Assembly (NCBI GenBank): GCA_902547535.1 | Contig: CACCOB010000002.1 | Span: 1-64,000, forward strand | Direction of reading: 5' to 3' | DNA length: 64,000 bases | Source: an uncultured Pelagibacteraceae bacterium | Lineage (GTDB): Bacteria; Pseudomonadota; Alphaproteobacteria; Pelagibacterales; Pelagibacteraceae | In this document: in pieces, positions 21,596 to 28,618 of the stretch | How the letters are laid out: each line of letters begins with the position of its first letter | How positions within the stretch are numbered: position 1 is the first letter of the stretch | Notes under the pieces: generated by a model | Database searches by the model: none | What the model saw: the letters and a program-made list of their open reading frames with translations, nothing else | Told to the model about the DNA's origin: nothing | Program-made: the position numbers and the translations under genes

Positions 21596-22645
21596 ATGTC
21601 TATTGTTTTAATTACTGGTTCGTGTGGCTTGGTAGGATCTGAAGCAGTTAAATTTTTTATTGAAAAAGGATTTGATGTGTATGGAATCGATAATAATAGT
21701 AGGAAATATTTTTTTGGTGAGGATGGTAATATCGTTAGTACAAAAAAAAATTTAAAAAAATTTAAAAAATATAAGCATTTTAATTTAGATATTAATTCTT
21801 CAAAAGTTTTAAATATATTTAAAAAATATAATAGAAATATTAAACTAATAATTCATTGTGCTGCACAACCCTCTCATGATTGGGCATATAAAGAACCTTT
21901 AAAAGATTTTTTTGTTAATTCTCTTGCTACTTTGAAATTATTGGAAAATACAAAAAACTTTTGCAAAGATTCAAATTTTATTTTTTTATCTACAAATAAA
22001 GTATATGGCGACAGTCCAAATAGGCTTAAGATAATTGAAAAAAGCCTACGATATGACCTTAAGATAAATGATAAATTATATAAAGGTATTAAAGAATATT
22101 TTCCTATTGATAATTCAACACATAGCCTTTTTGGTTGTTCAAAAGCCTATGCCGATTTAATAACTCAAGAATATGGAAAAAATTTAGGGATTAAAACCAC
22201 AATATTCAGGGCTGGTTGTATTACAGGTGTAAATCATAAAGGTGCAAAACTTCATGGCTTTTTGTCTTACTTAGTTAAATCTTGTATAAGTAACAAATCT
22301 TATGATTGTATTGGTTATAAAGGTAAGCAGGTTAGAGATAATATTCATAGCTATGATCTAGTTAATGCGTTCTGGGAAGTTTTTAAAAAGCCAAATTATG
22401 GGGAAGTTTTTAATATTGGAGGTAGTAGATATTCAAATTGCTCAATTCTAGAAGCTATTAAAATATTAGAAAAAAAAACGAATCTAAAGATAAAACTGAA
22501 ATTTATTAAATCACCAAGGGTAGGAGATCATCAATGGTATATATCTGACATTGGTAAATTTAAAAAAACATACCCCAAGTGGAAATTAAAATATAATTCA
22601 GAAAAAATAATTGATGAACTTATTGAAATCAATTCTTCCATTTAA
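21596..22645 (+). CDS. NAD-dependent epimerase-like SDR, CDP-paratose/tyvelose epimerase-like
   Basis: 'ITGSCGLVGSEAVKFF', 'RAGCITGVNHKGAKLHGFLSYL', 'GYKGKQVRDNIHSYDL'. Confidence 0.75.
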   Translation: MSIVLITGSCGLVGSEAVKFFIEKGFDVYGIDNNSRKYFFGEDGNIVSTKKNLKKFKKYKHFNLDINSSKVLNIFKKYNRNIKLIIHCAAQPSHDWAYKEPLKDFFVNSLATLKLLENTKNFCKDSNFIFLSTNKVYGDSPNRLKIIEKSLRYDLKINDKLYKGIKEYFPIDNSTHSLFGCSKAYADLITQEYGKNLGIKTTIFRAGCITGVNHKGAKLHGFLSYLVKSCISNKSYDCIGYKGKQVRDNIHSYDLVNAFWEVFKKPNYGEVFNIGGSRYSNCSILEAIKILEKKTNLKIKLKFIKSPRVGDHQWYISDIGKFKKTYPKWKLKYNSEKIIDELIEINSSI

Positions 22646-23771
22646 AATATTTATTTAAAAATACATAAAATCCAATACCAGCTATTGGAGTAATAAATAT
22701 ATATGCATGAGTAACAAATCTTTGATTACCATCAAGTATATACGGAAGTACTAGAAGAAAAGGTGCAATAAAGTTTAAAATATAAATTAAATTGTTTATA
22801 TTTTTTTTAAATCCATAGATTAAAAATACATAGTAAAATACAAGCATTGTTTTTGACAATATTTGATACTGTATCGACCAATTAGGAGATATCCAAAAAA
22901 TTCCATATAAAAATCTTTTGCTGTATAATTCTAACGAATAATCTAAGTCGCTAAAAATCATACATAAATGATTTTTAATTGAATTCATTTCTGTATAACT
23001 GCATTTCAAAAGAACTTCATTACTTAATGTGCTTAATACAGCTCCTTGTCTAACTATATCGTAACCCATTGCGGATTCTTTAAATAAAATAAATCCTGAG
23101 GATGTGCTTTCATTTAGTAAAGACAAATGATTAATTGTCAAAAGGATTGTTGAAAATATTATTAAAATCAATATCAATTTATTTGATCTTTTGTAAATTT
23201 TAAAAATAAAAAAAGAACTAAGTATTAGATAATTTAAAATTAACTTTGCATCATTCTTAAGAAGTAATATTAAAACTATAAATGTGAAAATTATTTTGTT
23301 ATCCTTAGAAATTAATAAACTTAAACTTAATAAACTTAAAGCAATAGTAATAATTAAAGGGTTTGCAGCATGACACCATTTAAAAAAAATTGGGTTTAAA
23401 ATAATCAAAAACCAGCAAATATATGCAATTTTTATGTTATAGGTTTTTGATAAAATTTTGAAAAAGTAAATACTTATTATATGCAACATTAAAAATTGGA
23501 CGATTGGAAGAAGGTATATAATATTGAGTTTCTTAAAAAGCCCAACAAAGAAATAATATAATGGAAATGAATTAAAGTACTGGCTATTAATCATTTCTAA
23601 TAAGTTATTTGGTCTTAAGTATCTATCACCATCCCATGGCATAAGAGGACCATTTATTGCTTCTGGGAATTTATATAAATTGTATTTATATGTTAGAAAT
23701 AATATTATTGAACTTAATAAAATAATAAAAAAGTTTGTGTTGGAGTATTTTTCAATTAATTTAATTTGCAT
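22629..23771 (-). CDS. multi-pass membrane protein, putative GT-C-like
   Basis: Hydrophobic; 'GPLMPWDGDRYLRPNN' near N-terminus; 17-nt convergent overlap with preceding gene. Confidence 0.55.
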   Translation of the reverse strand: MQIKLIEKYSNTNFFIILLSSIILFLTYKYNLYKFPEAINGPLMPWDGDRYLRPNNLLEMINSQYFNSFPLYYFFVGLFKKLNIIYLLPIVQFLMLHIISIYFFKILSKTYNIKIAYICWFLIILNPIFFKWCHAANPLIITIALSLLSLSLLISKDNKIIFTFIVLILLLKNDAKLILNYLILSSFFIFKIYKRSNKLILILIIFSTILLTINHLSLLNESTSSGFILFKESAMGYDIVRQGAVLSTLSNEVLLKCSYTEMNSIKNHLCMIFSDLDYSLELYSKRFLYGIFWISPNWSIQYQILSKTMLVFYYVFLIYGFKKNINNLIYILNFIAPFLLVLPYILDGNQRFVTHAYIFITPIAGIGFYVFLNKYFKWKN

Positions 23772-23789: not shown

Positions 23790-24524
23790 ATGAGCAAAAT
23801 ATTAATTTTTATACCTTGTTACAATGTAGAAAGAAAAATTAAAAAAGTTTTTCATAAATTACCAAGTAAAGTTTTGAAAAATGATAAAATTAAGCTTTTA
23901 TTCATAGATGATAATTCAAAAGATAATACACTTAAAATAATAAAAAAAATCAAAAAAAATTATAAAAAAAAAATCCAAATATTGTCTAATTCAAAAAATT
24001 ATGGTTATGGATACGTACAAAAAACTGCATTTCAATATTCTATAAAAAATAATTTTGATATTGTATTAATGTTACATGGTGATAATCAATATCCTGCAGA
24101 TAAAGTTATAAAAATTTTAGATCAATTTAGAATAAAAAAAAATAATGCAGTATTTGGAACAAGAATGCATAGTATAACATCTGCTTTCAAGGGTGGTATG
24201 CCTATGTATAAGATTATAGGCAATAAACTTTTAACATTTCTTCAAAATTTTATATTAGGATCAAAAATGAGTGAATTTCACTCAGGTTTTAGAGCATACA
24301 GAGTAAATAGCTTAAAAAAAATAAAATTTCAAAATAATTCTAATAAATTCCATTTCGATACAGAAATAATTATTCAATTTATAAAAAAAGGTTACCAAAT
24401 TAAAGAGGTTCCAATGCCAACTTATTATGGAGATGAAGTTTCACATTTAAAATCGATACCATATGGCCTAAATATTATTAAGAGCACTCTAAAGTATAAG
24501 TTTTCAAAAAAATCGTATGATTAA
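23790..24524 (+). CDS. glycosyltransferase family 2
   Basis: 'IFIPCYNVERKIKKVF', 'LFIDDNSKDNT', 'LMLHGDNQY', 'FGTRM', 'EFHSGFRAYR'. Confidence 0.87.
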   Translation: MSKILIFIPCYNVERKIKKVFHKLPSKVLKNDKIKLLFIDDNSKDNTLKIIKKIKKNYKKKIQILSNSKNYGYGYVQKTAFQYSIKNNFDIVLMLHGDNQYPADKVIKILDQFRIKKNNAVFGTRMHSITSAFKGGMPMYKIIGNKLLTFLQNFILGSKMSEFHSGFRAYRVNSLKKIKFQNNSNKFHFDTEIIIQFIKKGYQIKEVPMPTYYGDEVSHLKSIPYGLNIIKSTLKYKFSKKSYD

Positions 24525-25908
24525 TAAAATTAGATTACAGCCTTGTCCTGGTTCATTTAGAGATCCAAGTAATCAAGTTTATATTTTAAAAGATAGAGTC
24601 TTAAGAAAAATTATTGAAAAAGATAAAAAAAAATATTTAGATTTTTTTAATTCTAATTTTTATAAAAAAATAAGTGAAAGAATTGTCTATACTGAAATTG
24701 ATAATTCAATTTCTAATAAATATATATTACAAAACAACAATGATTTATTTTTTTCTCACGAGAAAATTAATTTTATCTCTTATCCATTTGAGTGGCCTTT
24801 TTTCCTCTATAAAAAAGCAGCTATTTTTCATTTAGAGCTACTTATAGATTGTTTAGAAAATAATTACATTTTAAGTGATAGTTCCCCATACAATATACAA
24901 TTCAACAAAGGTTTGGAACCAAAGTTTATTGATTTTGGATCTTTCATTCCATATGAGTTAAACAGTCCATGGCTAGGATATAAACAGTTTTGTGAACAAT
25001 TTTTGTCACCTCTATTAATTGAAAATTATTCAAAATTAAATTTCCAAAAATTAATAAGAAATAATTTAGAGGGAATTGATCTTATTTCTACTTCAAAAAT
25101 TTTGCCAAAAAAAACATTTTTAAACTATAAAATTTTTGCAAATATTCATTTTCATTCTTATCTTATAAATAAAATTGATTCTAAATCTGATCAAAAAAAT
25201 AAAAATCTTAAGTTCAAAAAGGAAAATATTATTTCATTATTGAAATCGCTTAAAGATTTAATAAGTAGTTTGAAATCGTTCAAAAAAAGCTATTGGGGAG
25301 GTTATAAAAGTGAAGATAGTTATTCAAATGAAGGTCAAAGTGAAAAAGAAAACATTTTAGCCAATTATATTCAGAATTCGAAGCCTAATAATATACTAGA
25401 TTTAGGCTGTAATAATGGAAAATTTTCTGAAATAGCGCTTAAAAATGGGGCAAATTTTGTTGTTGGAACAGACAACGATTTTGGTAGTTTAGAAAAGTCT
25501 TGCTTATTAGCACAGCAAAAAAATCTAAACTTTTTGCCATTATATATGGATTTAACTGAACCTACGCCAAATATAGGTTTTCAAAATTTAGAAAGAGAGT
25601 CATTTTTAAAAAGGTCAGAAATATTTGATGGACTTATCGCTTTTGCACTTATTCACCATCTTTGTTTGTCCAAAAATATACCTTTAAAAAAAGTAATTTT
25701 GTTTATTTTGTCACTTGCAAATTCAGGTATTATAGAATTTGTCCCTATCGAGGATCCTCAATGTAATAATCTAATGTTTAATAAAAAAGTTAAACATGAA
25801 GATTATAATTTAGAAAATTTTGAATTAATTTTAAAAAATAATACAAAGACTTTTAAAAAGCTCGAATTGCCAAATAGTTTGAGAGTATTGTATATCTATG
25901 AAATATAA
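24517..25908 (+). CDS. kinase-like N-terminal domain fused to SAM-dependent methyltransferase (NoeA-like family)
   Basis: 'ILSDSSPYNIQFNKGLEPKFIDFGSF' (kinase-like D-x4-N-x12-DFG) then 'NILDLGCNNGKFSEIALKNGANFVVGTDND' (SAM motif I). Confidence 0.72.
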   Translation: MINKIRLQPCPGSFRDPSNQVYILKDRVLRKIIEKDKKKYLDFFNSNFYKKISERIVYTEIDNSISNKYILQNNNDLFFSHEKINFISYPFEWPFFLYKKAAIFHLELLIDCLENNYILSDSSPYNIQFNKGLEPKFIDFGSFIPYELNSPWLGYKQFCEQFLSPLLIENYSKLNFQKLIRNNLEGIDLISTSKILPKKTFLNYKIFANIHFHSYLINKIDSKSDQKNKNLKFKKENIISLLKSLKDLISSLKSFKKSYWGGYKSEDSYSNEGQSEKENILANYIQNSKPNNILDLGCNNGKFSEIALKNGANFVVGTDNDFGSLEKSCLLAQQKNLNFLPLYMDLTEPTPNIGFQNLERESFLKRSEIFDGLIAFALIHHLCLSKNIPLKKVILFILSLANSGIIEFVPIEDPQCNNLMFNKKVKHEDYNLENFELILKNNTKTFKKLELPNSLRVLYIYEI

Positions 25909-27259
25909 AATATTAGATTACTTGCCCCTTTTATTGCTATTTATCGCACCTGTAATATTTTTAACAATAAAAAACTTTAATAATTCTTATCCTTTAAATT
26001 TTATATCAACATTAATAGCCCTAATTATTGTAAGTATTTTAATTTTCTTTTTCTTTAAAATATTATTAAAAAAAAAAAAATATATAAAGGTCCTTTATTT
26101 TTTATATCTTTTCTGGTTTTTTCAATTTTATATTAATACGACTAATTTAAATTTTTTAAGTTTATCTGATTTTAGTCAAAAAATAATAATATTAATCATA
26201 ATAATAATTATTTCATCTTTATTAAGTTTTTTCTTAAATCAATATATAAAAAATTTTATAATTATTTTTATATTTTTAAATTTCATTTATCTATTAAGTG
26301 ATTTACTTATACCAAAGAACTTTGAAAAAAGTGATTATTTAAATTCTTCTGAAATTCTAGATTTAAAATTTAAAAATAAAGAAAATATTTATTTTATAAT
26401 TTTAGATCAGATGACCTCTAAAAAATTATATTTAGAAAAATATGCATTAGATATCTCAACAAATTTAAATAATTTTCAAAAAAAAGGTTACAAATATATT
26501 GATAATACTCAAACTGATAATTTAGAGTCCACAAAAGTTATTTCTAGTATTTTTAACTTAAATAAAGATGTTTCATCAAAAGAAAGAAATTTATTTTTGA
26601 GTGAAAATTCAAATAGTCATGAATTACTATTTTTATTAAAGAATAATGGTTATAAAATATGGTACCTTGATAACGATATGGTCAAATGTCCAGTACATGA
26701 GTTAATAAACTGTATAAACAAGGGCTCATCTAGCCTCATCAATTCTCCAATTTATCATTTATTCTCAGTTTCAATATTTAATAAAGTGTATAAGTACCTC
26801 ATCCATGAGTATTTCGTTTCATTCAAAAAAGATAAATTGTATGCACATACTGAAATTGATAAATTTTTAAAATTCTTAAAGAACAATCAAAAATTAATAA
26901 TCAATAAAAAAAACTTTATTTTTATTCATAATCTAGGACCTCATCACCCTTATAGAGATAGAAATTGTAAACTGATTTCGTTCGATTATAAAATGAGTGA
27001 TGACGAAATTAATGATTATAGATCTTCAACATTATGTGTTTTAAAAAAGGTTGAAAAATTTGTTAGTCACATTGAGAAATATGATAATGATGCAACAATA
27101 ATTATTCAAGGGGATCATGGATTTAGTATAGATAACAATATTAAAAAGCGTGATAAGGATATTTTTAACTTGGTAAAAATTCCTAATAATTGTAATTTGA
27201 GTTTAAAACCTATAACAAATAATATAAATATTTTTAAAAATATACTTAACTGTATTTAA
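25898..27259 (+). CDS. membrane-anchored alkaline phosphatase/sulfatase-superfamily protein
   Basis: N-terminal TM segments; 'ENIYFIILDQMTS', 'FIHNLGPHHPYRDRNC', 'IIIQGDHGFS'. Confidence 0.72.
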   Translation: MKYKILDYLPLLLLFIAPVIFLTIKNFNNSYPLNFISTLIALIIVSILIFFFFKILLKKKKYIKVLYFLYLFWFFQFYINTTNLNFLSLSDFSQKIIILIIIIIISSLLSFFLNQYIKNFIIIFIFLNFIYLLSDLLIPKNFEKSDYLNSSEILDLKFKNKENIYFIILDQMTSKKLYLEKYALDISTNLNNFQKKGYKYIDNTQTDNLESTKVISSIFNLNKDVSSKERNLFLSENSNSHELLFLLKNNGYKIWYLDNDMVKCPVHELINCINKGSSSLINSPIYHLFSVSIFNKVYKYLIHEYFVSFKKDKLYAHTEIDKFLKFLKNNQKLIINKKNFIFIHNLGPHHPYRDRNCKLISFDYKMSDDEINDYRSSTLCVLKKVEKFVSHIEKYDNDATIIIQGDHGFSIDNNIKKRDKDIFNLVKIPNNCNLSLKPITNNINIFKNILNCI

Positions 27260-27263
27260 AACA

Positions 27264-27452
27264 ATGAAATTCTTACTTTTATTTATTATATTTTTTTCAT
27301 TTACTACTTATAGCCAAGCTTATGTAGATCCTGGATCAGCTAGTATAATTATACAGGCTATAATAGGATTTATTGCAGGAGCGTTAGCAACAATAAAATT
27401 ATGGTGGAAAAAATTTATTAGTTTGTTTTCAAAAAAAACCAAAAAAAATTGA
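27264..27452 (+). CDS. small exported/membrane protein, YVDPGS motif
   Basis: 62 aa; signal-like N-terminus, 'AYVDPGSASIIIQAIIGFIAGALATIKLWWKK'; 4-nt overlap with next gene. Confidence 0.65.
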   Translation: MKFLLLFIIFFSFTTYSQAYVDPGSASIIIQAIIGFIAGALATIKLWWKKFISLFSKKTKKN

Positions 27453-28453
27453 TGCATATATTCATAACAGGCATAGCTGGTTTTTTAGGTTCTAATTTAG
27501 CGAATTTTTATTTAAACAAAAAATTTAAAGTCTCAGGTTGTGATAATTTAGTCGGTGGTGATAGAGAATTTGTAAATCCTAAAGCTATATTTTATCAAGG
27601 TGATTGTGAAGATTTGGACTTTATGACTAGAGCAACTGCAGGTGCTGATATAATATGCCATGCCGCTGCTTATGCTCATGAAGGTCTTTCAAGTGTCTCT
27701 CCAACCCTCATCTGTAATAATAATGTTACAGGTAGTGTTTCTGTATTTACTGCAGGAATAAGAAATAACGTAAAAAGAATTGTATTTTGCTCGTCAATGG
27801 CTAGGTATGGTGACATAAAAATTCCATTTCATGAAAATGATAAAGTGAATCCAGTAGATCCTTATGGAGTATCAAAAGTTGCAGCCGAAAATATACTTAA
27901 AATTTTATGTAGAACACACAAGGTCGAATACAATATAGCAGTACCTCATAATATTATAGGACCTAATCAAAAGTATGACGACCCATTTAGAAATGTAGCC
28001 TCAATTATGATAAATTTAATGCTTCAAAAAAGAAGACCAATTATTTATGGTGATGGAGAACAAAAAAGATGTTTTTCAGATATCGATGATTGTATTTATT
28101 GTTTAGACAAATTGATTACTGATCCAAAAATAATTTCTCAAACAGTAAATATTGGACCTGATGAGGAGTATATTTCAATTAATGATTTATATAAAATACT
28201 TTCAAACAAACTGCAATTTAATGAGCCACCTATATATACAAATGATAGGCCCAATGAAGTAAAACATGCGACTTGTTCGTCCGAAAAGGCAAGAGAAATC
28301 CTTAAGTATAAAACTACAGTAGATTTATCCAGCTCACTAGATAAATTAATTAAATTTATTAAAAAAGGGGGTATTAAGGAATTTAAATATAATTATATGC
28401 TTGAAATAGAAAATGAAAATACTCCTTTGACTTGGAAGAAAAGACTATTTTAA
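27449..28453 (+). CDS. NAD-dependent epimerase/dehydratase (UDP-glucose 4-epimerase-like)
   Basis: 'ITGIAGFLGSNLANF', 'DPYGVSKVAAENIL', 'PHNIIGPNQKYDDPFRNVASIMI'. Confidence 0.82.
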   Translation: MMHIFITGIAGFLGSNLANFYLNKKFKVSGCDNLVGGDREFVNPKAIFYQGDCEDLDFMTRATAGADIICHAAAYAHEGLSSVSPTLICNNNVTGSVSVFTAGIRNNVKRIVFCSSMARYGDIKIPFHENDKVNPVDPYGVSKVAAENILKILCRTHKVEYNIAVPHNIIGPNQKYDDPFRNVASIMINLMLQKRRPIIYGDGEQKRCFSDIDDCIYCLDKLITDPKIISQTVNIGPDEEYISINDLYKILSNKLQFNEPPIYTNDRPNEVKHATCSSEKAREILKYKTTVDLSSSLDKLIKFIKKGGIKEFKYNYMLEIENENTPLTWKKRLF

Positions 28454-28502: not shown

Positions 28503-28618
28503 GCCTGGTGATTATTGCGAAAGGGTAATACCCGATCCCATTCCGAACTCGGAAGTCAAGCCTTTCTGCGCCGATGGTACTTTGTCTTAAGACATGGAAG
28601 AGTAGGACGTTGCCAGGC
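28503..28618 (+). rRNA. rrf: 5S ribosomal RNA
   Basis: Terminal helix GCCTGG (28503-28508)/CCAGGC (28613-28618); conserved 'CCCGATCCCATTCCGAACTCGGAAGTCAAGCC' and 'GAGAGTAGGACGTTGCCAGGC'-like core. No 16S/23S in window. Confidence 0.93.

Follow-up and report, generated by a model that had tools for sequence, protein, structure and literature searches.

The window analysed here, a 64,000-nucleotide stretch of a contig from an uncultured SAR11 bacterium (Pelagibacteraceae), contains a run of four genes called as ORFs on the forward strand. They encode a GT2 glycosyltransferase (23790–24524; 244 aa), a NoeA-family kinase-methyltransferase fusion referred to here as KMT (24517–25908; 463 aa), a NoeB-like membrane enzyme, SULF (25898–27259; 453 aa), and DPG, a small membrane protein with the motif YVDPGS (27264–27452; 62 aa). 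As stated in the preliminary description, the four are co-directional, and the ORF coordinates confirm overlaps of 8 nt between GT2 and KMT and of 11 nt between KMT and SULF, followed by a gap of 4 nt between SULF and DPG. The DPG gene in turn shares a single base with a gene for an NAD-dependent sugar epimerase/dehydratase (27452–28453, forward strand; PF01370, 5e-43). The two meet in TGATG at 27450–27454, with the epimerase ATG at 27452, and the co-directional run thus extends into the epimerase.

Downstream of the block lies an isolated 5S rRNA gene (28504–28618, forward strand; Rfam RF00001, 93.3 bits). The GC content is 0.20–0.24 upstream and about 0.28–0.33 downstream of the block, a step that marks the edge of an AT-rich island; together with the 5S gene it bears out the island-edge position, beside the epimerase and 5S, that had been proposed earlier. 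By its published definition, the SAR11 hypervariable region HVR2 is a surface-polysaccharide island lying between 23S and 5S. The window has no 23S gene, and its first position is also the first of the contig. The setting fits an AT-rich surface-glycan island ending at 5S, as in HVR2. A second SAR11 genome (L042) retains the order GT2-KMT-SULF-small gene-epimerase, with the four genes at 50–69% identity to those of the window and the epimerase at 83%.

The initial family calls for GT2 and SULF both hold, with matches to PF00535 (6e-22) and to the sulfatase-superfamily model PF00884 (3e-9), respectively. The best NCBIfam match of GT2 is AglJ, at 79 bits far under the cut-off of 325, and the protein appears to be an AglJ/polyprenyl-phosphate-hexose-synthase-like glycosyltransferase. 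Convergent with it, on the reverse strand, is a gene for a 380-aa multi-transmembrane (TM) protein without a family match (22629–23771), possibly a GT-C partner in a polyprenyl-phosphate-sugar pair.

In KMT, a kinase-like domain at the N-terminus is followed by a class I SAM methyltransferase domain, whose SAM motif DLGCNNG occupies residues 295–301. The AlphaFold2 model is confident (pLDDT 92.2, pTM 0.92), and no signal sequence is evident. Family libraries returned isolated weak matches at most for the kinase part, which has no Pfam family, and the methyltransferase family call is itself weak (1e-4). A tblastn comparison with Sinorhizobium/Ensifer plasmids gave matches at 33.5% identity over 98% coverage (E value about 1e-75), and several annotated records name the matching gene noeA. 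By this comparison, KMT is a full-length homologue of Sinorhizobium NoeA. Aligning 53 NoeA homologues revealed that the kinase-pattern residues R30, D121, N126 and D139 are invariant in 53/53, as are D295/G297/N299/G301, D319/D321 and H380/H381. As judged from this alignment, the active-site residues of both domains are intact in KMT. In a quick tree, limited by long branches and biased composition, the SAR11 NoeA proteins split over more than one clade, with those of the window and L042 grouping with L013, near Bacteroidota and candidate-phylum sequences. This placement is consistent with horizontal movement. One further NoeA gene nests among the SAR11 sequences while lying on a contig labelled Acidimicrobiaceae SP49 (L051), which is probably a misbinned SAR11 contig.

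The architecture of KMT is reminiscent of WbdD, the chain terminator of the E. coli O9a O-antigen, which performs a kinase step and then methylates the phosphate on the glycan. WbdD is among the best matches of the KMT methyltransferase domain both by profile and by fold, and both proteins combine a kinase and a SAM methyltransferase and are encoded in a surface-glycan locus. However, WbdD has the order methyltransferase-kinase-coiled coil, whereas the order is reversed in KMT, which lacks the coiled coil. The kinase domains are dissimilar by sequence and the neighbouring genes differ. On domain order, membership of KMT in the WbdD family was ruled out.

The AlphaFold2 model of SULF (pLDDT 83.5) comprises five TM helices and a periplasmic catalytic domain, and its best matches among solved structures in Foldseek are EptC, MCR-1, EptA, ICR and LtaP. 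Like EptA/MCR/EptC and LtaS/LtaP, SULF pairs five TM helices with a periplasmic domain of the alkaline-phosphatase (AP) superfamily that has a Thr-type nucleophile and a DHG motif, although identity is only 12–13% and TM-scores are moderate (about 0.4–0.6). SULF differs from these enzymes in its association with a small, putative partner protein. In 45 aligned SULF-family sequences, the nucleophile column holds T in 36 and S in 9; the window protein has S211 and keeps D170, H349, D406 and H407. SULF thus has the several TM helices, AP-superfamily domain, Thr/Ser nucleophile and metal ligands of the EptA/LtaS type. Searching plasmids with the window SULF protein returned no match; its link to NoeB was reached by pairwise comparison (BLASTP, 1e-8 over 115 aa) and by profile comparison with the NoeB group (profile-profile probability 97.7%, E 2.4e-12). 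These comparisons place SULF as a distant NoeB homologue within the AP superfamily. The family is divergent, with 19% mean column identity, and PF00884 genes are rare in the order, where 53/97 genomes have any and no genome exceeds three matches.

Membership in PF00884, and the sulfation of S. meliloti Nod factors known from the literature, might suggest a genuine sulfatase, whose substrates would be marine glycans or Nod factors that carry sulfate. Yet the C/S-x-P-x-R formylglycine motif was found at the nucleophile column in none of the 45 sequences, all of which have T or S there, and the membrane topology and the best fold matches to EptA, MCR and LtaP point the same way. With the sulfatase nucleophile motif missing, an EptA/LtaS-type fold and a Thr/Ser nucleophile, sulfate chemistry is unlikely. 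We accordingly rejected the sulfatase assignment, to which we attach only a very small probability, and consider a phosphotransferase with an EptA/MCR/LtaS-like fold more likely. Of the phospho- or sulfo-activity suggested at first for this gene, the sulfate part is unlikely to hold.

DPG of the window consists of a signal peptide ending in SQA, followed by YVDPGSAS, one TM helix and a basic tail. Across 59 aligned family members, Y20, D22 and Q31 are invariant within the motif Y-x-D-P-G-[ST]-G-S-x3-Q. The residue preceding the Tyr is Ala in 85/91 sequences and the residue at –3 is Ala or Ser in 78/91, a signal-peptidase signature that makes the motif the predicted mature N-terminus (Y-[LIV]-D-P-G-[ST]-G-S). 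This is the sole strongly conserved part of the protein; the tail that follows the TM helix is net basic in 65/91 but not conserved. A library search gave isolated weak matches at most, and no Pfam or NCBIfam model covers the family. Where a tiny exported protein had been envisaged earlier, the prediction for DPG is a protein of the inner membrane whose N-terminus lies in the periplasm.

The co-localisation of these genes was assessed from 102 NoeA-family genes found with a SAR11-based profile, of which 82 were flanked on each side by 2.5 kb or more of sequence. Among the 82, a small gene was present at 81, a phosphatase-superfamily gene at 73 and both at 72. Removal of duplicate contigs left 77 non-redundant loci, with a small gene within 2.5 kb in 76/77, a SULF-type gene in 68/77 and both in 67/77; no SULF gene was detected near the remaining 9/77, and 1/77 lacked the small gene. 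Control ORFs, which were long ORFs lying beyond 5.2 kb at the same loci and are not all independent, had a small gene in 0/280 and a phosphatase-superfamily gene in 4/280 (0–1.4%), which rules out a chance neighbourhood of the trio. At the genome level, the small protein accompanies NoeA in 9/9 NoeA-positive genomes among 399 Pseudomonadota and in 12/12 among 297 genomes of the SAR11 order (hypergeometric p of 8e-15 and 1e-12, respectively, values that ignore the relatedness of the genomes). The trio spans Proteobacteria, Bacteroidota, Actinomycetota, Acidobacteriota, Planctomycetota, Nitrospirota and candidate phyla. Its usual order is small-NoeA-NoeB, as in a Legionellales MAG (L050), and NoeA-NoeB-small in the window, L042 and L013. 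KMT, SULF and DPG are thus a conserved three-gene unit. The preliminary description had set independent occurrence of the homologues against a shared function, and the opposite pattern was found.

An incidental gene set in a hypervariable glycan island would require no joint function. Such islands are reshuffled by recombination and horizontal transfer, and the presence of NoeA in the SAR11 order is patchy (12/297 genomes). The trio, however, stays together across many phyla, at 67/77 loci against near-zero controls. The incidental reading, which we hold to be scarcely credible overall, is refuted for the three-gene set and holds for GT2: tried as a core member of the cassette, GT2 was ruled out, since L042, a syntenic SAR11 relative, is the only other genome in which it stands beside the trio. 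The four-gene module first proposed therefore survives as a trio, with GT2 a companion local to the window and L042.

The trio also has a named counterpart, contrary to the initial view that it matched no named pathway: it corresponds to the noeA and noeB genes in the nod box n5 operon of Sinorhizobium, and the kinase-methyltransferase and its neighbours were described in 2022. In Ensifer canadensis, the gene order is nodL, a hypothetical protein (216-bp CDS), noeA and noeB. The second of these encodes YLDPGTGS, and S. meliloti pSymA has such a protein too; in our Sinorhizobium/Ensifer loci the YLDPGTGS gene lies between nodL and noeA on the forward strand (L033:5721–5969, L032:5754–5969). Like the window, the n5 operon of S. 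meliloti and its relatives thus comprises a NoeA homologue, a NoeB-type enzyme and a DPG-type small gene. It differs in its small-noeA-noeB order, against KMT-SULF-small in the window, in including nodL, in place of which the window trio is flanked by GT2 and the epimerase, and in its symbiotic setting, against a SAR11 surface-glycan island. According to papers citing Ardourel 1995, the nodL-noeA-noeB operon is needed to nodulate particular Medicago species. Both noeA and noeB were recognised as host-range genes as early as 1995; in the literature found, their role is given as hypothesis only. A name for the small gene of the operon was not found in our literature search, outside which most subscription papers lay, nor was any work joining the KMT, SULF and small-protein components.

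A survey of the Legionella pan-kinome (PMC9758233) reports a kinase-methyltransferase family, Lani_1194, with conserved kinase residues R/D/N/D and identifies NoeA as a homologue. Lani_1194 is described there with two conserved neighbours, Lani_1193 and Lani_1195, and Lani_1195/NoeB is assigned an AP fold. The neighbour rates of 65% and 38% of 816 neighbourhoods given in the survey are below those obtained here. By these descriptions, KMT of the window belongs to the same family and lies in the conserved neighbourhood, and Lani_1193 may be the small protein. The kinase-methyltransferase and its conserved neighbours are thus already reported in that study. Its main text does not describe Lani_1193 or a small membrane family with its motif, the independent pairing or fusion of the small protein with an AP enzyme, or SAR11 members. 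Apparently new are the identification of the small protein, the observation that it pairs with the NoeB-type enzyme, and the occurrence in SAR11.

DPG-type small genes also occur without NoeA. Among 20 such genes, taken from the order and class samples and counted by reading of the loci, about 15 either lie no more than about 1.3 kb from a SULF-type gene or are fused to one. A SAR11 genome (L166:6126–7796, forward strand) encodes a 556-aa protein in which an AYIDPG module is fused ahead of a sulfatase-superfamily enzyme. The pairing without NoeA and this fusion indicate a partnership between the small protein and SULF. In three further genomes, the DPG module is fused ahead of a PF04464 CDP-glycerol glycerophosphotransferase-like domain (L211:3433–4731, reverse; L215:3451–4809, reverse; L217:4458–5723, forward). 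Two of these fusions adjoin a gene for a YidC/60KD_IMP insertase-sulfatase superfamily fusion of 913–1003 aa (L211:383–3394, reverse; L217:1720–4461, forward). The presence of PF04464 fusions beside SULF-type genes indicates phosphate chemistry. From these arrangements we infer that DPG and the NoeB-type enzyme form the core, with NoeA an accessory dependent on it.

Cousin small proteins with AYLGPG(x)GGG adjoin a protein of about 450 aa at L161–L165, L167, L169 and L170. At L163, the sole SAR11 cousin locus scanned, this neighbour is a PF14269 arylsulfotransferase with a sulfotransferase gene nearby, and the seven further loci are arranged similarly. This suggests that sulfate transfer has a small-partner family of its own, parallel to DPG.

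DPG might instead be a substrate, with KMT and/or the AP-superfamily enzyme modifying its Y-x-D-P-G-[ST] terminus or basic tail to yield a decorated surface peptide. The location of the only strongly conserved segment at the predicted mature N-terminus would suit this, as would the small protein accompanying nearly every NoeA. KMT, however, having no evident signal sequence, would reach only the unconserved tail; the fusions in L166 and at the three glycerophosphotransferase-like loci suit a partner or anchor better, and the settings of the trio are islands of glycan genes and a nod operon. We regard a substrate role as improbable. Somewhat less doubtful, yet still unlikely, is that the NoeB-type enzyme belongs with lipid-dependent transferases such as EptA/OpgB, adding phosphoethanolamine or phosphoglycerol with DPG as cofactor, and that modification by KMT is independent, its gene being merely a co-inherited surface-variation gene. 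The EptA/LtaS-kind fold and nucleophile agree with this, as do the roughly 15 of 20 DPG-type loci that pair the small gene with SULF in the absence of NoeA. The occurrence of NoeA without the small gene at just one of 77 loci, on the other hand, argues for functional dependence rather than loose co-inheritance.

We therefore return to a horizontally mobile NoeA-NoeB-DPG cassette in a SAR11 surface-polysaccharide island, serving phosphate-based glycan decoration, which we judge to have an even chance of being correct. Acting in the cytoplasm, the NoeA-type protein would phosphorylate a sugar on a surface glycan that is lipid-linked or nascent, and would also methylate that glycan, perhaps at the phosphate, in the manner of WbdD. 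Once the glycan has been exported, the NoeB-type enzyme would move or remove a phosphoryl-type group on it in the periplasm by means of its Thr/Ser nucleophile. DPG, with its one TM helix, would partner the NoeB-type enzyme and expose Y-x-D-P-G to the periplasm, while its basic tail on the cytoplasmic side could link the NoeA-type and NoeB-type enzymes. The precedent of WbdD, with its kinase step followed by phosphate methylation on a glycan, counts in favour of this mechanism, as do the co-localisation, the joint presence of NoeA and the small protein in whole genomes, the trio in the nod operon, the pairing of DPG with SULF where NoeA is absent, the L166 and PF04464 fusions, the conserved residues, the EptA/MCR/LtaP-like fold and the island context. 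Against it count the reversed domain order relative to WbdD, a kinase part without a known family match, the 9/77 loci lacking SULF, the SAR11-based profile, the lower published rates and the divergence of the SULF family, whose members may differ in chemistry.

The product in SAR11 would be a variable surface group, and host-range specificity in rhizobia would rest on the same chemistry. More broadly, DPG could represent an unrecognised single-TM family of partner subunits for AP-superfamily membrane phosphotransferases, with GPG cousins beside arylsulfotransferases; the classical host-range operon n5 would in that case include an overlooked fourth gene on which NoeB depends, and phosphate-based glycan decoration by NoeA-NoeB-DPG would be widespread. 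We advance this proposal tentatively, as falling a little short of an even chance. With the small gene of the operon, and with the resemblance to an EptA/LtaS-type fold, hypotheses on noeA and noeB become concrete and open to testing. SAR11 bacteria are among the most abundant in the sea, and in them the cassette may determine a surface trait that matters for recognition by phages and grazers.
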